Assembly (NCBI RefSeq): GCF_039962255.1
Contig: NZ_JAMPKY010000007.1
Span: 248,001 to 312,000, forward strand
Length of the DNA stretch: 64,000 nt
Origin: Leptolyngbya subtilissima AS-A7
Lineage (GTDB): Bacteria; Cyanobacteriota; Cyanobacteriia; Phormidesmidales; Phormidesmidaceae
Direction of reading: 5' to 3'
Part shown: positions 4,806-41,836 of the stretch, piece after piece
Layout: the number at the start of each line of letters is the position of its first letter
Position numbering within the stretch: position 1 is the stretch's first letter
Made by a program: the position numbers and the translations under genes
The notes under the pieces: generated by a model
What the model saw: the letters and a program-made list of their open reading frames with translations, nothing else
What the model was told of the DNA's origin: nothing
Databases searched by the model: none

Positions 4806-5789
4806 CTAGACCTTAAGGGCGACCATATTTTCGACGGCAGCCTCGATTTGTTTGGGCTGCACGATGGTCAGTGTCTCTAGCTTACCGTTGTAAGGGGTGG
4901 GGATGTCTTGGGACGACAGGCGCACCACCGGGGCATCGAGTTCGTCAAAGTAGCGATCATTAATAGAGGCAATGATTTCAGCACCAATACCACCGGTTTT
5001 CATGCACTCTTCCACAATAATGACCCGGTGGGTCTTCTTGATTGAGGCCCCAATGGTGTCGAAATCTAACGGCTTGAGGGAAATCAGGTCAATCACCTCG
5101 GGGTCAATGCCTTTCTTCTCTAGGCCCTTGACCGCCTGGGTAACGTGGTGGCGCATGCGGGAGTAGGTGAGGATAGTGACATCCTTGCCAGGGCGCACAA
5201 TTTCGGCCTTGTCTAGGGGCACCACGTATTCGTGGTTGGGCAGCTCTTCTTTGAGGTTGTAGAGCAGCACGTGCTCAAAAAACAGCACCGGGTTGTCGTC
5301 GCGAATGGCGGCCTTAAGCAGCCCCTTGGCGTTGTAGGGAGTGGAGCAGGCGACAATTTTCAGCCCCGGCACCGCCTGAAAGTAAGCTTCGAGCCTCTGG
5401 GAGTGCTCGGCCCCCAGCTGCCGCCCCACGCCGCCAGGCCCACGAATCACCATAGGAATTTTATAGTTACCGCCTGAGGTGTAGCGCAGCATGCCGGCGT
5501 TGTTGGCGATCTGGTTGAAGGCCAGCAGCAAGAAGCCCATGTTCATGCCCTCGATAATCGGGCGCAGGCCGGTCATGGCAGCACCGACGGCCATGCCAGT
5601 GAAGCTGTTTTCGGCGATCGGGGTGTCGAGTACGCGCAGCTCGCCATACTTGTTGTAAAGGTCTTTGGTGACCTTATAGGAACCGCCGTAGACGCCGACA
5701 TCTTCGCCCAGAACAAAGACGGTATCGTCGCGGCCCATCTCTTCGTCGATGGCCTCGCGCAGGGCGTTAAATAGGAGGGTTTCTGCCAT
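4806..5789 (-). CDS. pdhB: Pyruvate dehydrogenase E1 component, beta subunit
   Basis: 327 residues, the normal size for the beta chain of the heterotetrameric (alpha2beta2) E1 of Gram-positive/plastid type. With PdhA it decarboxylates pyruvate and passes the acetyl group to E2, feeding acetyl-CoA to fatty-acid synthesis. Family marks include [26 protein letters not shown] at the N-terminus (Glu of GED activates thiamine diphosphate), [18 protein letters not shown], and the C-terminal transketolase domain with [17 protein letters not shown]. The start ATG 5789 is preceded by a short-tandem-repeat tract at 5811-5843. pdhA lies 194 bp upstream on the same strand. Confidence 0.96.
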
Positions 5790-5810
5790 TGCTTTGGTCT
5801 AAATAGGGTA

Positions 5811-5843
5811 GGGGGTTGAGTGGGTGGATGGGTGGGCGGGTAG
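5811..5843. repeat. Short tandem repeat tract (GGGTGGATGGGTGGGCGGG type)
   Basis: Imperfect heptamer-like repeats related to GGATGGGTAG lie 22 nt upstream of the pdhB start codon. The same family recurs at 23811-23880, 31424-31479, 35509-35603 and 36734-36760. Such STRR tracts are common in cyanobacterial genomes. Confidence 0.7.
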
Positions 5844-5938
5844 GGTGCATTCGCGGTCAACTCCCCTGGGGGATTCTCAAGCCAATGTCGTACCGCAATG
5901 CACCGTTTTTAGAGGCCGTAGAGTGGGCACTGCCCACC
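5844..5938. repeat. Intergenic palindromic repeat cluster between pdhA and pdhB
   Basis: Left arm GGTGCATTCGCGGT (5844-5857) pairs with right arm ACCGCAATGCACC (5892-5904), with one base unpaired. Just after it, GTGGGCA-C-TGCCCAC (5923-5937) is a perfect 7-bp inverted repeat inside GTAGAGTGGGCACTGCCCACC. Both motif types resemble dispersed cyanobacterial intergenic palindromes; the second recurs at 36761-36781. Confidence 0.7.
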
Positions 5939-5983
5939 GCTAGATATGCTGAGTTTCAAGCGCTTATGCCGGTTTCAGGGTGC

Positions 5984-7012
5984 TCACTCGTCGGCGAAGA
6001 TATATTTATAGAGGTCATCGGGGCTGGGCTCGGGGCTCTCTTCGGCGAAGGTGAGGGCGTCGTCGATGCGGGTCTGGATGCGATCGCGCACTTCCTTCAG
6101 CGTCCCCTCGTCGGCCAGATTCTGCTCTAGCAGGTAGCCCTCAAACCGCTTGATGGGATCGCGGGCCAGCCAGGCTTCTTTTTCGGCCTTCGATCGCAGC
6201 TCGTCGGGGTCAGCCAGCGAGTGGCCCCTAAAGCGGTAGGTGAGAGCCTCGATCAGGGTGGGACCTTCGCCCGCGCGGGCGCGGGCAACCGCCTGCTGAG
6301 CAACCTCGCGCACGGCCATCACATCCATGCCATCAACTTCAACGCCGGGCATGCCGAATACTGCGGCTTTTTTATAGATCTCGGGCTGGGAAGTGGCGCG
6401 CTCGTGGGCCATGCCGATTGCCCACTTGTTGTTTTCCACCACAAATAAAATCGGCAGCTTCCAGAGAGCGGCCATGTTCAGGCACTCAAAGAACTGGCCG
6501 TTGTTGCTGGTGCCATCGCCAAAGAAGCAGGCGGTGACTTGGTCGGCGTTGGAGTCACCTAGAGCGTCGCGGCGGTAGCGCGACTGAAACGCTGCCCCCA
6601 AAGCTACGGGAATGCCTTCGCCAATAAAGGCAAAGCCCCCCAGCATGTTGTGCTCGCTCGAGAACAGGTGCATCGAGCCGCCTCGCCCCTTGCTACAACC
6701 CGTTTCTTTGCCAAACAGCTCGGCCATGACATTCTTGGCGGGCACCCCAGCGCTGAGGGCGTGGACGTGATCGCGATAGGTGCTGCACACGTAGTCGTCA
6801 GACCGCAGCGATTTGATCACCCCGCTAGAGACCGCTTCCTGGCCGTTGTAGAGGTGCACGAAGCCGAACATCTTGCCCCGGTAATACATCTCGGCGCACT
6901 TGTCCTCAAAAAAGCGCCCCAGGATCATGTCTTCGTAAAGTCTCAGCCCCTCTTCGGGGGCGATCTGAGCTGCTGGAGCGTGGAATTGGGGTAACGTCCG
7001 TTCTTGAACCAT
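5984..7012 (-). CDS. pdhA: Pyruvate dehydrogenase E1 component, alpha subunit
   Basis: 342 residues, typical for the alpha chain. The thiamine-diphosphate motif reads [20 protein letters not shown] and ends about 30 residues later at [10 protein letters not shown] (GDG..NN pattern). The substrate/entry region [19 protein letters not shown] and the phosphorylation-loop-like [15 protein letters not shown] are present. ATG 7012 begins [14 protein letters not shown]. It sits 194 bp upstream of pdhB, separated by repeats but with no opposing gene, so co-transcription is likely. E2 and E3 are not in the window. Confidence 0.96.
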
Positions 7013-34208: not shown

Positions 34209-34499
34209 TTATCGAAGACTCTCTCTAACTCCTGAGCTATCTTGGTTGATAAGTTCTTGTACGTGGGCGGGCTGTAACCCAAGCCAGCTAACGGTTTGGT
34301 CTAAAGTCCAGCCTCTGTATTCAGCGATCGCCCGCAGATGGGTCAGGGTAATAGCAGGCGAAGACTTAGTGAGCCAAGATTTAATCACATGCCGTTCCAC
34401 TTTTAATGCGGCTTCTAGGTCTGGTCTGGTGCGGTAACGAAGTTCTTGGTTGAGCCAATCTACTAGAGCTTGAGTGTTCCAAGGATAGTAATTTTGCAT
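34209..34499 (-). CDS. Small hypothetical, possible HTH protein
   Basis: 96 residues: MQNYYPWNTQALVDWLNQEL start. The middle part (RPDLEAALKVERHVIKSWLTKSSPAITLTHLRAIAEYRGW) resembles an XRE-like helix-turn-helix, with LTLTHLRAIAEY as the end of such domains. Base composition is AT-richer than the flanks. Not assigned to a family; the regulator idea is inference. Confidence 0.55.
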   Translation of the reverse strand: MQNYYPWNTQALVDWLNQELRYRTRPDLEAALKVERHVIKSWLTKSSPAITLTHLRAIAEYRGWTLDQTVSWLGLQPAHVQELINQDSSGVRESLR

Positions 34500-34738: not shown

Positions 34739-35491
34739 TTACACGGCCAAGAACTCTTGAATAATGTCGTTGGTGAGTTCGCTGGTGGGACCATTGGCCA
34801 CGATGCCGCCCCGCTGCATGGCGTAGTAGTAGTCGGCCTGGCGCACAAAGTGCAGGTGCTGCTCCACCAGCAGCACTGAAATACCAGTGGTTCTAATGAT
34901 CTTCTTCACCGCCGCCTCAATACCGAGAATGATTGAGGGTTGAATGCCTTCGGTGGGTTCGTCTAATACGAGCAGTTTGGGCTGGCCCATGATAGCGCGG
35001 GCGATCGCCAGCTGCTGCTGCTGACCGCCGCTGAGGTCACCCCCCATGCGATCGAGCATGTCCTTCAACACCGGAAATAGCTCGTAGATCTCCTCGGGCA
35101 CTTCTTTCTGCGCCTTGCCTCGGCTGCCCAGGGCCTCCTGGCCAATCAGCAAATTCTCCCGCACCGTCAGCCGCGGAATCACTTCTCGGCCCTGAGGCAC
35201 GTAGCCAATGCCCAACCGCGCCCGGCGATCGGGGGGAAAGCTATTCACCACCTGCCCCTCAAAGCGAATTTCGCCCGTGCGTGGCCGCAGCACCCCCATG
35301 ATATTTTTGAGCATGGTTGTCTTGCCCACGCCATTGCGGCCAATCAGGCAGACCATTTGCCCCTTGGGAATAGTCATGCTCACATCGCGCAGAATGTGGC
35401 TTTCGCCGTAGTAAAAATTCAGCCCCGAGACCTCAAGCATGGGCGCGGTCATGGGGTCTTGGAGAGCCGGGGCAGGGAGGGTTGTAGTCAT
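34739..35491 (-). CDS. urtE: Urea ABC transporter ATP-binding subunit UrtE
   Basis: 250 residues from ATG 35491. ABC domain: Walker A GRNGVGKTT, signature LSGGQQQQLAIARA, Walker B LLVLDEPTEGIQPS (the IQPS ending is typical of LivF/UrtE). Start choice: a frame beginning at 35581 would translate a repeat tract, so it is rejected; internal ATGs at 35452 and 35440 (MTAPMLEVSG) are alternatives closer to the usual family start. Last gene of urtABCDE; the gap to urtD is filled by inverted 16-bp repeats. Confidence 0.92.
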   Translation of the reverse strand: MTTTLPAPALQDPMTAPMLEVSGLNFYYGESHILRDVSMTIPKGQMVCLIGRNGVGKTTMLKNIMGVLRPRTGEIRFEGQVVNSFPPDRRARLGIGYVPQGREVIPRLTVRENLLIGQEALGSRGKAQKEVPEEIYELFPVLKDMLDRMGGDLSGGQQQQLAIARAIMGQPKLLVLDEPTEGIQPSIILGIEAAVKKIIRTTGISVLLVEQHLHFVRQADYYYAMQRGGIVANGPTSELTNDIIQEFLAV

Positions 35492-35508
35492 GGGGAGTAA
35501 GGGGGTGG

Positions 35509-35603
35509 GAGAGTGGATGGGTAGGAGAGTGGATGGGTAGGAGAGTGGGTGATGGGGTGAATAGTAAACTGACTCATCCACCCATCTACTCGTCCACCCA
35601 TCT
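35509..35603. repeat. Inverted pair of 16-bp tandem repeats in the urtD-urtE gap
   Basis: GAGAGTGGATGGGTAG is repeated exactly at 35509-35524 and 35525-35540 with a diverged third copy to 35556. Opposed to it are ACTCATCCACCCATCT (35572-35587) and ACTCGTCCACCCATCT (35588-35603); the last overlaps the urtD stop codon. The halves are partly complementary, so a hairpin in the mRNA is possible. Confidence 0.85.
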
Positions 35604-36732
35604 ACCCTCGCGCAGCCAGTTCCTCTAAGGCGGCGGCTTCTAGGCGGCTGACGGTCTCGGGAGGCAGACCGAGCAAATTCAGCAGTTTTTGGTAGACCAC
35701 GGCCTCGGTTTGATTGATTTGGTTAGAGCTAATCACCTCGTAGCTGAGCATGAGAGCTTCTTCACGCTGGGCTTGGGTGGTGAGCTGAGGTACTAAGTCT
35801 TCTAGGGGAATTTCGGTGGCCAGCAGGTTCTGGAGATCGCTCCGCAGCTCGGCCTGCTCTTCGGGGGCGTGGGCAAACTTGCGGCTGAGGCGATCGAGAA
35901 TTAGCGCCTGCTGCACATCGGCGAAGTTGTCGTCGGCCCAGGCCATAGTGGCGGCAATGCGCAGCAGCAGCATTTGCTCAGGGGTGAGGCCGGTTTCTTT
36001 GCCCAGGTAGACCTCGATTACCTTGGGGTCGGTCTGCACCTGGTCCATGGTGCCTTCAAAGAGCACGCTGCCCTGGTGCAGCACGGTAACCTGACGGGCA
36101 ATCTGGCGCACAAACTCCATATCGTGCTCAATCACCACAATGGAGTGGCTTTCGGCCAGCGACATTAGCAGCTTGCCGGTCTGCTCGGTCTCTTCGTCGG
36201 TGAGGCCCGCCACGGGCTCATCTACGAGCAGCAGATCGGGCGACTGGGCCACCAGCATGCCAATCTCAAGCCACTGCTTCTCGCCATGGGAAAGCAGCGC
36301 GGCAGGGATGTCAGCTTTGTGGTCAAGGCCAATGGTTTCGAGCAGGCCGCCTACGGTGCGCTTTTCGGCAGGCGGGGCCTTTTTGAACAGGGTGGAGAAG
36401 ACGTTTTTATTGCGATTGCAGGAGAGATCGAGGTTTTCGCGGGGAGTGAGGTTGAGGTAAACGCGGGGGGTTTGGAACTTGCGACCAATGCCCAAGCGGG
36501 AGATCTCGTGCTCTTTGTATTTGCGCAGGTCTTGGCCTTTGAAATAGGCCGCGCCCTCGGTAGGTTTGGTTTTGCCGCTAATGACGTCTAGGAAGGTGGT
36601 TTTGCCCGCGCCGTTGGGGCCGATGATTACCCGCAGTTCACCCTCGTCCATGCTGAAGTTGAGGTTGTTGATGGCCTTGAACCCATCAAAGCTAACGGTG
36701 ACGTCTTTAATCTCTAAGACTTTGGTGCTCAT
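35602..36732 (-). CDS. urtD: Urea ABC transporter ATP-binding subunit UrtD with extra C-terminal TerB-like domain
   Basis: 376 residues from ATG 36732 (MSTKVLEIKDVTVSFDGF). Residues 1-246 are a normal UrtD: Walker A GPNGAGKTT, signature LLSHGEKQWLEIG, Walker B LLLVDEPVAGLTDEE, ending VIEVYLGKE, where most UrtD proteins stop. A further 130 residues (35605-35994) form an all-helical acidic domain, TPEQMLLLRIAATMAWADDN, then YQKLLNLLGLPPE, with the periodicity of TerB/tellurite-resistance-type domains. That assignment is inference. Fusion is not a frameshift product: one continuous frame with native codon use. Flanked by repeats on both sides. Confidence 0.9.
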   Translation of the reverse strand: MSTKVLEIKDVTVSFDGFKAINNLNFSMDEGELRVIIGPNGAGKTTFLDVISGKTKPTEGAAYFKGQDLRKYKEHEISRLGIGRKFQTPRVYLNLTPRENLDLSCNRNKNVFSTLFKKAPPAEKRTVGGLLETIGLDHKADIPAALLSHGEKQWLEIGMLVAQSPDLLLVDEPVAGLTDEETEQTGKLLMSLAESHSIVVIEHDMEFVRQIARQVTVLHQGSVLFEGTMDQVQTDPKVIEVYLGKETGLTPEQMLLLRIAATMAWADDNFADVQQALILDRLSRKFAHAPEEQAELRSDLQNLLATEIPLEDLVPQLTTQAQREEALMLSYEVISSNQINQTEAVVYQKLLNLLGLPPETVSRLEAAALEELAARG

Positions 36733-36733
36733 T

Positions 36734-36760
36734 GTGGGTGGATGGGTTGGGAGTGGATGG
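36734..36760. repeat. Short tandem repeat tract before urtD
   Basis: GTGGGTGGATGGGTTGGGAGTGGATGGG lies directly before the urtD start codon on the coding strand's 5' side, leaving no standard ribosome site. Confidence 0.65.
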
Positions 36761-36903
36761 GTAGGGTGGGCACTGCCCACCATCAGGCTGTGGGGCTGAT
36801 CGAGGTTTTTGTTGGGTTAGGTGAGCAATGCCTAGGTAAGGGGCTGTTGCCTGAGCTAGGCTGCGGAAGTCTTAGCTAAGTGGTGGGCAATACCCACCCT
36901 ACT
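36761..36903. repeat. 143-bp MITE-like element between urtC and urtD
   Basis: Ends are inverted copies of one 21-bp palindromic motif: GTAGGGTGGGCACTGCCCACC at 36761-36781 and, on the opposite strand, GTAGGGTGGGTATTGCCCACC at 36883-36903 (two differences). Each end is itself palindromic. The core is non-coding. No clear target-site duplication is visible. Confidence 0.7.
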
Positions 36904-36913
36904 TTTCAGCAGA

Positions 36914-38086
36914 CTACTTCTCGGCGAACTCGGGGACAGCTTCAACTACCGAATCGCTATCGCTGGCGTAGGGCACGTCCGTAGGGGTGAGGCCTAGGGC
37001 CGAGCTAACCACAGAGCCAAATTGGCGGCGACCCCAGCCAATAATGCCGTCGGGCAAAGCTGTCACCACAATCAGGAACAATGCCCCCTGGAAAAATAGC
37101 CACACGTCGGGAAAGCGCTCGCTGAGCAGGCTGCGGGCCATGTTCACCAGCACGGCACCCAGCACGGCACCGACTAGGGTGGCGCGCCCGCCTACGGCGA
37201 CCCAAATCACCATCTCGATGGAGAAGGCGATATCCATCACCTGGGGCGAGATAATGCCCGATTGCACCGTGTAAAGGGCACCGGCAATACCCGCGATCGC
37301 CCCTGAGACCGCAAACACCAGCACCTTAAACGCCGTTGGGTCGTAGCCTGAGAAGCGCACCCGGTTTTCGTCATCGCGGATGGCCACCAGCATGCGGCCA
37401 AAGCGCCCGCTGGTAAGCCAGCGGCAGAGGGCGTACATAGCGATCAGCGCAATGACGGTGCTGATGTAAAAGAACATCCGCATGCCGTCGCTGCCCACCT
37501 GCTGGCCCATAAACACCGAGGTAGAGGTTTTGAGACCGTTGGTGCCGTTGATCAGCTTTTGCTGACCATTGAACAGGTTAAAAAACACCACCAGGGCGGC
37601 CTGGGTCAAAATTGAGAAGTAGACCCCACGAATGCGGTTGCGGAACACCAAATAGCCCAGCAGCCCCGCCACGATCGCCGGTATGGTAAAAATCGCCAGC
37701 AGCGTAAACGGCAGCGAGTTGAACGGCTGCCAAAACCAGGGCAGCTCCGTCACCCCGTAGAGGCCGAAAAACTCTGGCAGTTGCCCCTCGCCCAGAGTGT
37801 TTAACTCCAGGTACATGGCAAAGGCATAGCCCCCCAGGCCAAAAAAGATGCCGTGGCCCAGGCTGAGCAGGCCCGTGAAGCCCCAGATCAAATCAATACC
37901 CAGAGCCACGATACCGAGGGCCAAAAAGCGCCCCAGCAGATTCAGCCGAAAGCCCGTCAGCAGCATCGGCATGATCAAAATCAGGATGAGGGCGATCGCA
38001 ATGACCGCGATCGCCTCAATCATCAACTTGCGCTTTTGGCTGGCCTTGGCGGCGCGGCGAGGTTGAACGGCAATATCTGTAGTCAT
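36914..38086 (-). CDS. urtC: Urea ABC transporter permease UrtC
   Basis: 390 residues, LivM-type membrane protein with about nine hydrophobic helices. Family marks: ALGIDLIWGFTGLLSLGHGIFFGLGGYAFAM near residue 65 and GAIAGIAGALYTVQSGIISPQVM with WVAVGGRATLVGAVLGAVLVN near 290-320 (EAA-like loop contacting the ATPases). Starts 4 bp after urtB, so translation is tightly coupled. The C-terminus is acidic. Confidence 0.94.
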   Translation of the reverse strand: MTTDIAVQPRRAAKASQKRKLMIEAIAVIAIALILILIMPMLLTGFRLNLLGRFLALGIVALGIDLIWGFTGLLSLGHGIFFGLGGYAFAMYLELNTLGEGQLPEFFGLYGVTELPWFWQPFNSLPFTLLAIFTIPAIVAGLLGYLVFRNRIRGVYFSILTQAALVVFFNLFNGQQKLINGTNGLKTSTSVFMGQQVGSDGMRMFFYISTVIALIAMYALCRWLTSGRFGRMLVAIRDDENRVRFSGYDPTAFKVLVFAVSGAIAGIAGALYTVQSGIISPQVMDIAFSIEMVIWVAVGGRATLVGAVLGAVLVNMARSLLSERFPDVWLFFQGALFLIVVTALPDGIIGWGRRQFGSVVSSALGLTPTDVPYASDSDSVVEAVPEFAEK

Positions 38087-38090
38087 AGCC

Positions 38091-39263
38091 CTATAGCTCC
38101 ACCGAACGGCCCTTCGGCGGGAACAGCCCAGCGGGCCGCACCTGCAAAAAGGCGATAATCAACGCAAACACCATCACCTTGGCCATGCTCGTTGTGGCAA
38201 AGAACGTGAAGAAGTCAACCGCAGGCTTAAAAAATCCCGTCGGCGGAAACAGCAGCGCCATGGTACCCGATCCCACCAGATAGGTCGTAATACCAATCAC
38301 AAGCGCCGCCACGATGCTGCCCACCAGTTTGCCGACACCGCCCACCACCACCACCATGAAGGCATCGACGATGTAGTTGGCCCCTAGGTTGGGGCCCACT
38401 GAACCCAGCAGCGTCACCGCGCACCCGGCTATCCCCGCCAGTCCAGACCCCAGAGCAAACGTAATCGCATCCACTTGCCCGGTGGGAATACCCAAGCAGG
38501 CACTCATGCCTCGATTCTGAGTCACAGAGCGAATCCGCAGCCCCCAGGCGGTGCCGTTGAGGAACCAGTAAACCGCCGCCAGGCAAAGAATGGTGAGCAC
38601 AATAATAAATAGTCGGGCAGAGGGAAATTGAAGCGAATTGCCCAAGGTGATGCCTCCCCGCAGCCAGCTGGGCGGCGTGACATCAACGTTGCGGGTGCTA
38701 AACCAGGCTCGCGAGAACTTAGCACTGCCAGCGTTGCCGATCAAAATCCAGGCCAGCACCGCGATCGCCGCTGACAGTCCCAAAAATACCGGGTTAGCCC
38801 AGGCTTGAATACGCTCCCAGTCGGTGTAGCGCGTCAGCACCCAGCGACCAACTAAAAATAACACCCCAAAAATACCCAGACCAATTACCATCGGCAGGCT
38901 GACGCTGCGGATGAACTGAATCAAAATCAGGCTCACCCCCCAGGTGGCCAACAGCGTTTCTAGGGGACGTCCATAGAGATAACGAATCACCGTTCGCTCT
39001 AGCAGCAAGCCCAGTAAAGCCGCCACCAAAAACGCCAGAGGCAGGGCCGCAAATATGTATAGATCAGGAGCAATCCCCCCAATGCTTTTGGCCGCATTTT
39101 GCACCACAAATGTGGTGTAAGCCCCAAACATCATCAGTTCGCCGTGGGCCAGATTAATGACCCCCATCAAGCCAAACACGATCGCTAAGCCCAATGCCAC
39201 AATCAACAGCACCGCACCAATGCTAATGCCATTAAAAAGGCCACCAATTAAGCCTTCCAACAC
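38091..39263 (-). CDS. urtB: Urea ABC transporter permease UrtB
   Basis: 390 residues, LivH-type permease. Motifs: ALGLAIVFGLMGVINLAHGELMMFGAYTTFV at the N-terminus and GLAGIAGCAVTLLGSVGPNLGANYIVDAFMVVVVGGVGKLVGSI near 300. UrtB-type insertion between helices (about 160-220, WILIGNAGSAKFSRAWFSTRNVDV) is present. Separated from urtA by 377 bp containing a strong hairpin, so UrtA can be made in excess. Confidence 0.94.
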   Translation of the reverse strand: MLEGLIGGLFNGISIGAVLLIVALGLAIVFGLMGVINLAHGELMMFGAYTTFVVQNAAKSIGGIAPDLYIFAALPLAFLVAALLGLLLERTVIRYLYGRPLETLLATWGVSLILIQFIRSVSLPMVIGLGIFGVLFLVGRWVLTRYTDWERIQAWANPVFLGLSAAIAVLAWILIGNAGSAKFSRAWFSTRNVDVTPPSWLRGGITLGNSLQFPSARLFIIVLTILCLAAVYWFLNGTAWGLRIRSVTQNRGMSACLGIPTGQVDAITFALGSGLAGIAGCAVTLLGSVGPNLGANYIVDAFMVVVVGGVGKLVGSIVAALVIGITTYLVGSGTMALLFPPTGFFKPAVDFFTFFATTSMAKVMVFALIIAFLQVRPAGLFPPKGRSVEL

Positions 39264-39640: not shown

Positions 39641-40945
39641 CTAGACCTCAAATTTACCGCCCTTAGCGGGGTCAGACCAGTCGCAGGCAAAACCGATGGT
39701 GTCGGGCACAAACTGGTTCCAGGGCTCCGGATCAATCGGGCCGTCGGTTTCCCAGACAATGTTAAACATGCCGTCATCCATAACTTCCCCAAGCCGTACG
39801 GTCTTCGAGAGGTGGTGGTTGGCATTCATCGTCACGGTACCTTCGGGGGCGGCCATGCTCTGACCGTAGGCCGCTGCCCGCACCTCAGCAATATCAAAGC
39901 TGCCTGCGGCTTCCACGGCCTGCTTCCATAGGTAAACCATGATGTAGGCGGCTTCCATAGGGTCGTTGGTCACTCGGTCGTCACCAAACTCGGACTTAAA
40001 GTCGGCAACCCACTTTTCGTTTTCGGGGGTTTCAACGGTTTGGAAGTAATTCCAAGATGCCAGGTGACCCACCAGAAACTCGGGGCCAATCTGACGAACT
40101 TCTTCTTCTGCCACGCTCACCGACATCACGGGGTACTGGTCAGGCCCCATGCCCGCGCCCTGGAGCTGCTTGAAGAAGGCCACGTTGCTGTCGCCGTTGA
40201 GGCTGTTGAAAATCACGCCGCCGTCGGGCATAGCAGCCTTGATTTTGGTGATGATCGGGGTAACTTCGGTGTTGCCCAGGGGCAGATAGTCTTCACCCAG
40301 GGTGTTGCCGCCCTTAGCCGTCAGCTGTTCTTTGATAATGGTGTTGGCGGTGCGGGGAAACACGTAGTCAGAACCCACCAGGAAGAAGTCTTTGCCCTTG
40401 TTCTCGAGCAACCAATCTACCGCCGGTTCAATCTGCTGGTTGGGAGCAGCCCCGGTGTAGAAGATATTCTTAGAGCACTCTTGGCCCTCGTACTGCACGG
40501 GGTACCACAGCATGTGGTCTTTTGACTCGAATACGGGCAGCACGGCCTTGCGGCTGGCTGAGGTCCAGCAGCCAAACACAACGGCTACCTGGTCGTCATC
40601 GATCAGTTTTTCGGCCTTGGAAGCAAAGGTAGGCCAGTCGGAGGCGCCATCTTCTGTGATGGCTTCAATCTGCTTGCCTAAGACACCGCCAGCCTCGTTG
40701 ATTTCTTTGATAGCGAGCATCTCAGCATCGACCACCGTGGTTTCGCTGATGGCCATGGTGCCGCTGAGGGAGTGCAGAATGCCCACCTTAATGGTTTCGC
40801 CATCGGCGGCGGCAGTATCGGTGCTAGCGTCGGTGGCACCGGTATCAGTGGTGGTGCTGCCGCCACAGGCTTTGAGCAGCATAGAGGTGCCCAGGGTCGC
40901 AGACCCATACACCAAAAACTTACGTCGATTAAATCGAGTTACCAT
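39641..40945 (-). CDS. urtA: Urea ABC transporter substrate-binding protein UrtA
   Basis: 434 residues. Lipoprotein with a twin-arginine-like start, FNRRKFLVYGSATLG, and lipobox LLKACG (Cys about residue 27). The mature part is the UrtA/AmiC fold: KVGILHSLSGTMAISETTVVDAEMLAIKEINEAGG, FGCWTSASRKAVLPVFE, LWYPVQYEGQECS and NYFQTVETPENEKWV, all typical of urea-binding members. GAGG lies just before ATG 40945. An NtcA-type promoter lies 96 nt upstream. Leads urtABCDE. Confidence 0.96.
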   Translation of the reverse strand: MVTRFNRRKFLVYGSATLGTSMLLKACGGSTTTDTGATDASTDTAAADGETIKVGILHSLSGTMAISETTVVDAEMLAIKEINEAGGVLGKQIEAITEDGASDWPTFASKAEKLIDDDQVAVVFGCWTSASRKAVLPVFESKDHMLWYPVQYEGQECSKNIFYTGAAPNQQIEPAVDWLLENKGKDFFLVGSDYVFPRTANTIIKEQLTAKGGNTLGEDYLPLGNTEVTPIITKIKAAMPDGGVIFNSLNGDSNVAFFKQLQGAGMGPDQYPVMSVSVAEEEVRQIGPEFLVGHLASWNYFQTVETPENEKWVADFKSEFGDDRVTNDPMEAAYIMVYLWKQAVEAAGSFDIAEVRAAAYGQSMAAPEGTVTMNANHHLSKTVRLGEVMDDGMFNIVWETDGPIDPEPWNQFVPDTIGFACDWSDPAKGGKFEV

Positions 40946-41212: not shown

Positions 41213-41836
41213 TTAAGGAACTAACGCTACGGGTTCAGCCGCTGCGTGGTAGCTAATGAAATCGATAATGGTGGCTAGACCCGCCTGGGTTTTGAGGTTG
41301 GTGAAACCAAAGGGGCGATCGCCTCGCATCCTGAGAGCATCCCGCTCCATTACCTCTAAGCTTGCACCGACCATTGGAGCCAGGTCGATTTTGTTGATTA
41401 CCAAAAAGTCAGATTTAGTAATCCCTGGCCCGCCCTTACGAGGAATTTTGTCCCCAGCGGCCACGTCGATAACATAGAGGGTCAAGTCGACCAGCTCGGG
41501 GCTGAAGGTGCTGGCCAGGTTGTCGCCGCCGCTTTCCACAAACACCAAATCGAGGGGATCAAAACGAGCCTCGAGATCCTCGATCGCCACCAAGTTCATT
41601 GAGGCATCTTCGCGGATGGCGGTGTGGGGGCAGCCGCCGGTCTCGACCCCAACGATGCGATCGGGGCTGAGCGCCTGACTGCGCACTAAGAACTGAGCGT
41701 CTTCCTGAGTGTAGATGTCGTTAGTGACTACGGCAATGGAGTAGCAATCGCGCAGCGCCTTGCACAGGCTATCTACCAAGGCCGTCTTGCCCGAGCCCAC
41801 CGGGCCTGCCACACCAACGCGAAAGGGAGTTGCCAT
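41213..41836 (-). CDS. ureG: Urease accessory GTPase UreG
   Basis: 207 residues. Supplies GTP hydrolysis for nickel insertion into urease. P-loop [14 protein letters not shown], the metal-binding CPH motif in [28 protein letters not shown] and the G4 motif NKIDLAP are all present. Located upstream of the urt promoter on the same strand; the other urease genes are not in the window. Weak RBS. Functionally linked to the urt genes: imported urea needs active urease. Confidence 0.97.

Follow-up and report, generated by a model that had tools for sequence, protein, structure and literature searches.

The window, i.e. the whole stretch of 64,000 nucleotides of Leptolyngbya subtilissima AS-A7 DNA that was analysed, encodes on its minus strand the genes of a urea importer in the order urtA-B-C-D-E, and the urtD gene of this run encodes an ATPase that continues into an additional TerB-like domain at its C-terminus. 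The same arrangement was found in related loci, placing the fused gene among the urt genes. The features discussed below are the following:

34739..35491, minus strand: urtE, encoding the second ATPase (start placed at 35491; a longer open frame starts at 35581)
35602..36732, minus strand: fused urtD-terB gene, 376 codons and stop (open frame, TIGR03411 match)
35995..36732, minus strand: UrtD ATPase part, residues 1-246 (TIGR03411 at 5-245, BCA_ABC_TP_C at 223-246)
35965..36000, minus strand: junction of 12 residues (245-256), from YLG to the first conserved TerB anchor (comparison of fused tails)
35605..35994, minus strand: TerB-like extension, residues 247-376 (130 residues), seven predicted helices (profile and model)
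35932..35934, minus strand: D21 codon of the extension (residue 267; alignment of 102 rows)
35911..35913, minus strand: Q28 codon of the extension (residue 274; same position is E in the standalone rows of the alignment)
36914..38086, minus strand: open frame that we take to be urtC, from context; query in the locus comparison
38091..39263, minus strand: open frame that we take to be urtB, from context
39641..40945, minus strand: open frame that we take to be urtA, from context
41213..41836, minus strand: presumably ureG, a urease accessory GTPase gene upstream of urtA; named from the sequence

Short repeats of the type ACCCATCCACTC precede both urtE and urtD (35490-35580 and 36733-36783), and urtE is followed on the same strand by a 96-codon open frame with no function assigned (34209-34499).

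The fused gene is read from an ATG at 36732 to a stop codon at 35602-35604, giving an uninterrupted frame of 376 residues. Residues 5-245 match TIGR03411 with 379.9 bits (E 5e-114), which passes the curated cut-off of 304.1, and BCA_ABC_TP_C, the usual C-terminal motif of UrtD, matches residues 223-246. An earlier note on this DNA had described 130 C-terminal residues beyond the normal UrtD end as helical and acidic, and this description is borne out in each respect: residues 247-376 carry a net charge of -11 with a pI of 4.3, and AlphaFold models them as a bundle of seven helices (mean pLDDT 81.8, pTM 0.70). A UrtD with an extra TerB-like domain of 130 residues is hence a confirmed observation. 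Compared to the UrtD of known UrtABCDE importers (TIGR03411), the protein of the window has the same ATPase part and is encoded in the same urtABCDE gene run, but has 130 further residues, predicted to form a domain of their own.

The relation to TerB, likewise proposed in the earlier note, was assessed with profiles and structure prediction. Pfam TerB (PF05099) matched the extension alone with 24.1 bits (E 4.7e-5), just under the gathering cut-off of 24.4, and the whole fused protein with 20.6 bits; as the score lies under the cut-off, the domain is named TerB-like here. In a TerB family search of the window's genome, which gave ten places in all, the fused locus scored 23.5 bits; as the same type of search found matches in 8 of 14 control genomes, hits to this family are widespread among bacteria. 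DUF533 (PF04391) reached 16.5 bits with the extension and at best 27.2 bits among the fused copies seen, both under its cut-off of 29.6. Within a diverse set of 12 fused proteins, TerB matched all members and DUF533 matched ten (E up to 1). In a further scan, of five fused extensions that included two from the former set, the second copy of locus L025 reached 33.0 bits with TerB, three extensions scored below the TerB cut-off (17.6, 20.4 and 23.2 bits) and that of L056 had no TerB match; DUF533 outscored TerB in two of the five, including the Synechocystis-type copy.

The best structural match of the extension model was 2ou3, titled as a tellurite resistance protein of Nostoc punctiforme (COG3793; Z 11.5 over 122 residues), followed by 2h5n (Z 8.6), on a scale where, according to the tool's own warning, helical bundles may score up to about 13 by chance; the rows after these two TerB-like entries did not exceed 5.3. 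Foldseek alone ranked 2h5n first for the model and gave no match under E 0.001, a PDB sequence search with the extension alone as query gave no match, and a PDB search with a profile of the extension gave 2h5n at E 0.044. A designed repeat protein (E 0.0014 in the profile search) was taken as a chance match. Since both TerB-like structures stand clear of the others and the profile match accompanies them, a TerB-type fold is accepted. The tail is predicted to be folded rather than disordered, and the earlier reading of the domain as TerB appears essentially right on the basis of profile and model.

In the genus of the window, 22 of the 23 genomes of a first survey encode UrtD and the extension in a single frame (377-458 codons), the remaining genome (G018) encoding a standalone TerB-like copy only, and 24 of 26 genomes of the genus matched through the extension in a survey of the family. 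Family-wide, UrtD was matched in 56 of 63 genomes, 38 of them through the extension; the other 18 comprised 12 with a near full-length UrtD without extension (among them G439, with a broken frame), one with a partial UrtD, and five whose sole UrtD is a distant one (46-51% identity). For the phylum, an evenly drawn sample gave UrtD matches (E 1e-60) in 141 of 386 genomes, and 16 of the 141 matched through the extension. These 16 genomes span eight family codes, to which the genus survey adds f7 and f9, bringing the single-frame fusion to at least ten family codes. The expectation that such an extension is no routine part of cyanobacterial UrtD proteins is thereby supported for the phylum, where most sampled UrtDs lack it, but within the genus of the window it is the usual form. 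A contig scan using one short pattern, which is blind to copies as divergent as those of Synechocystis, gave 45 fused and 35 unfused loci among the best 80 of 112. Named fused hosts include Nodosilinea, Leptolyngbya, Adonisia, Xenococcus, Spirulina and Picosynechococcus PCC 7117. The fused UrtD is a variant of a known transporter that is widespread in some lineages.

Some individual loci deviate from these patterns. One of the 35 unfused loci, L162 (the contig of G439), has the extension directly behind UrtD in another frame: at 5145-6342 (G439:C513) the UrtD frame stops seven residues past YLG and the TerB-like part follows in the other frame, representing either a recent break or an error in this metagenome assembly. 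At L025 (1105-2721, G030), a single frame holds UrtD and two tandem TerB-like domains, with no urtA, B, C or E within 16 kb. Three genomes with a fused gene also encode a second, unfused UrtD-like ATPase of 47-49% identity (G452:C1:1459839, G425:C1:4818 and G433:C261:5502). Long open frames in G440, G401 and G174 were rejected as fusions, the extra length being upstream open frame; this check covered these three genomes and left out G296 (321-codon frame).

The gene neighbourhood was compared across loci. Among the 45 fused loci, UrtC is encoded on the same strand in 43 (the other two having at most 170 bases upstream) and UrtE in 37. The complete group of five urt genes is present in 5 of the 17 diverse fused loci (L112-L128) vs 19 of 23 unfused ones (L129-L131, L258-L277), a contrast that may be due to related genomes and short contigs. 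No known TerB partner was found among the neighbours of the fused gene, which were compared with urt and ureG only.

The idea that the extension is an assembly fault, a chance read-through or a disordered tail is hardly credible. The broken junction of the single metagenome assembly described above (L162) would fit such an explanation, but the same frame recurs in many independent assemblies of several genera (22 of 23 genus genomes and 45 of the best 80 loci), the extension is modelled as folded, and its dN/dS of about 0.09 indicates that it is under purifying selection. The median dN/dS (45 pairs from 10 sequences) was 0.091 for the TerB part and 0.033 for the ATPase, values that are rough with dS near 1. 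The attachment is also fixed: the distance from YLG to the first TerB anchor is exactly 12 residues in all 66 distinct fused tails (drawn from 112 fused entries, all containing the motif), and the 37 distinct tails of unfused UrtDs end 2-24 residues after YLG. Such a short, constant junction on one ATPase speaks for a defined geometry, although the invariance could partly be due to descent from one fusion.

The history of the fusion was followed in phylogenetic trees of both parts. In the tree of UrtD ATPases (91 rows, L162 left out), fused and unfused proteins are interleaved with 12 changes, of which starred, well-supported branches force 4; the tree is poorly resolved, with 35 of 88 inner branches open. 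The UrtD tree in and around the window's family, where unfused UrtDs nest among fused ones, shows 7 changes (bootstrap range 7-9) when 42 rows are counted, 2 of them being forced. In the tree of 115 TerB rows, on the other hand, the fused copies lie nearly all on one side (3 changes), and a tree of 58 chosen rows has 2 changes and does not reject a single fused clade (AU p 0.297); both have few columns and long branches. For the subset of 58 rows, near copies and long rows were dropped, and the Synechocystis-type copies, G166, the f27 copies, the second L025 copy and L111, a standalone row placed among fused ones, are absent from it, a choice that biases the tree toward a tidy result. One fused row (L053) still groups with standalone rows in this tree. 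As the TerB tree allows one fusion and the UrtD trees interleave fused and unfused proteins, one old fusion followed by repeated loss would be the simplest reading, the number of losses being approximate due to the poor resolution of the UrtD tree, with transfer of fused genes as a possible alternative to loss.

The genome of the window also encodes a standalone TerB-like paralog (G000:C2:94593-94967) that is ~50% identical to the extension. Standalone cyanobacterial TerB-like proteins have a further C-terminal segment and E28, unlike the extension of the window, and their genes sit by other genes, not urt; no urea genes were found among the shared neighbour families, named by eye, of 14 such loci. 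A quinolinate synthase-like family (by eye) adjoins the standalone gene in 4 of the 14 loci. When the fused and standalone copies were aligned, D21 was found to be conserved in all 102 rows. At position 28, with D21 one of two acidic sites that the domain conserves strongly, all 45 standalone rows have E; the window's group has Q there in 24 of its 25 rows, the 32 other fused rows have 53% E and 47% Q, and position 22 in the window's group is mostly D, not G. The acidic D-G-x5-E pattern of the standalone relatives, which we take to be metal-binding, is thus not found in the window, where the residues are D21, D22 and Q28.

TerB proteins have a metal role, and the domain could accordingly act as an ion sensor whose acidic residues would bind a divalent metal, the bound state gating the ATPase and so linking urea import to metal status, e.g. 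to nickel for urease. Such a function would agree with the invariant D21, with the D-G-x5-E pattern kept in the Synechocystis-type copies and with the position of ureG next to urtA in the window. The change from E28 to Q in the window's lineage, together with D at position 22, weakens this explanation there, and the other fused rows are divided at a position where every standalone row has E. The position of ureG as a hint to nickel was rejected as non-specific, since the gene lies beside urt also with unfused UrtD (7 of 23 unfused vs 2 of 17 fused sample loci); it was seen in 19 of the 45 named fused loci, many of which are too short to tell. We find an ion sensor unlikely. The earlier note's overall reading is thus supported in part: the TerB-like domain stands, while a sensory or metal-linked role would be conjectural, the metal reading having lost ground in this lineage.

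A link to experimental work is provided by Synechocystis PCC 6803, whose UrtD (Sll0764) and UrtE have reported masses of 41.19 kDa and 27.42 kDa, respectively (PMC6603209). The fused urtD genes of two closely related genomes (G111 and G127) start identically to the published PCC 6803 forward primer (30/30 bases) and differ by 1-2 mismatches from a published reverse primer of 21 bases, which by eye encodes the end VDEDGD as in G127, and by 3-4 mismatches from another of 23 bases, whose first bases are perhaps vector. The computed mass of both fused proteins is 41.3 kDa. Judged from the published mass and primers, the UrtD of PCC 6803 very probably carries the TerB-like domain; the passages on Urt in that study do not discuss an extension. 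In that genus, 3 of 5 genomes have the fusion. The TerB part of close relatives with near-matching primer sites is divergent, with 34-35% identity to that of the window. UrtD is also fused in Picosynechococcus PCC 7117 (L175); in the related PCC 7002, a redox probe is reported to label UrtA, UrtD and UrtE when nitrogen is limiting (PMC4080843).

The Synechocystis study also bears on possible partners. According to its sections on Urt, PII controls the activity of the importer at the ATPase pair, and subunits of the importer co-purify with PII from urea-grown cells, UrtD and UrtE more strongly than the others (PMC6603209). On these grounds PII, the nitrogen regulator, might dock onto the transporter through the domain, but we consider this highly improbable, as PII interacted with UrtE and not with UrtD, wild type or variants, in the two-hybrid assays reported there, and the UrtD tested very probably carried the domain. 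The same result leaves the UrtD extension for another partner. N-terminally tagged PII moreover pulled down the transporter together with a urease set (UreABC with D, F and G), whereas C-terminally tagged PII did not enrich urease; in the passages on these experiments, the authors suggest direct PII contact or channeling and name no linker (PMC6603209). An adaptor tying the urea importer to the urease machinery, with urea handed on at the membrane, would be one role for the domain, though a decidedly unlikely one considering that PII rather than UrtD served as bait, and that most sampled UrtDs are without the domain.

A signal of interaction within the transporter was sought in alignment columns tracking the fusion, and no clear co-varying positions were found in UrtE, UrtC or UrtB. 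The largest frequency differences were 0.57 (UrtE), 0.44 (UrtC), 0.53 (UrtB) and 0.48 (UrtD ATPase), compared to largest values of 0.54, 0.48, 0.56 and 0.51, respectively, in 200 shuffles. UrtE exceeded all 200 shuffles at two columns, from which nothing is drawn as the shuffles ignore relatedness. The lack of a partner signal in this comparison would suit a purely structural function, in which the domain stabilises UrtD or the complex without regulating it, as would the frequent loss of the domain while urtD stays and its roughly three times faster evolution relative to the ATPase. Conversely, the invariant junction and the conservation of sites between distant families point to a specific surface or geometry, and even though stability alone could demand some of such conservation, we regard a purely structural role as unlikely.

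We instead favor, with a probability of about one half, a docking or regulatory function of the TerB-like domain. In this view UrtD, one of two different ATPases in the importer, would have gained the seven-helix domain at its C-terminus through an old fusion, and the short junction of invariant length would keep the domain at a constant distance from the ATPase, putatively near the cytoplasmic base of the UrtD/UrtE pair. The model of the full-length fused protein (pTM 0.54, residues 215-246 with pLDDT <50) does not fix the place of the domain. A cytosolic partner or ligand binding to the domain might then slow the ATPase or place the pump beside downstream machinery, a control that some lineages could afford to lose; the repeated absence of the domain in relatives indicates that it is dispensable. 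Precedents are MetNI and ModABC, which are described as using C-terminal ATPase domains for feedback inhibition (PMC10710835). MetN and ModC resemble the fused UrtD in having a folded extra domain behind an importer ATPase, but their domains have other folds than the TerB-like one, inhibition by ligand is a feature of MetN and ModC, and the TerB-like domain, unlike theirs, sits on one of two different ATPases.

Literature searches gave no earlier description of a UrtD-TerB fusion and no earlier report of a TerB-like fold fused to an importer ATPase, and the main text of a study on cyanobacterial urea genes contains no TerB (PMC6737895). The TerB-like fold would join the domains known to be fused to importer ATPases, in a transporter for a compound that serves as a nitrogen source for many cyanobacteria. 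How the urea importer is switched, and how it is joined to urease, are described as still open by the authors of the Synechocystis study (PMC6603209). A folded, conserved and lineage-specific domain on one importer ATPase would offer a single removable handle on the transporter, and with the domain very probably present in Synechocystis PCC 6803, its role may be testable in a model organism.
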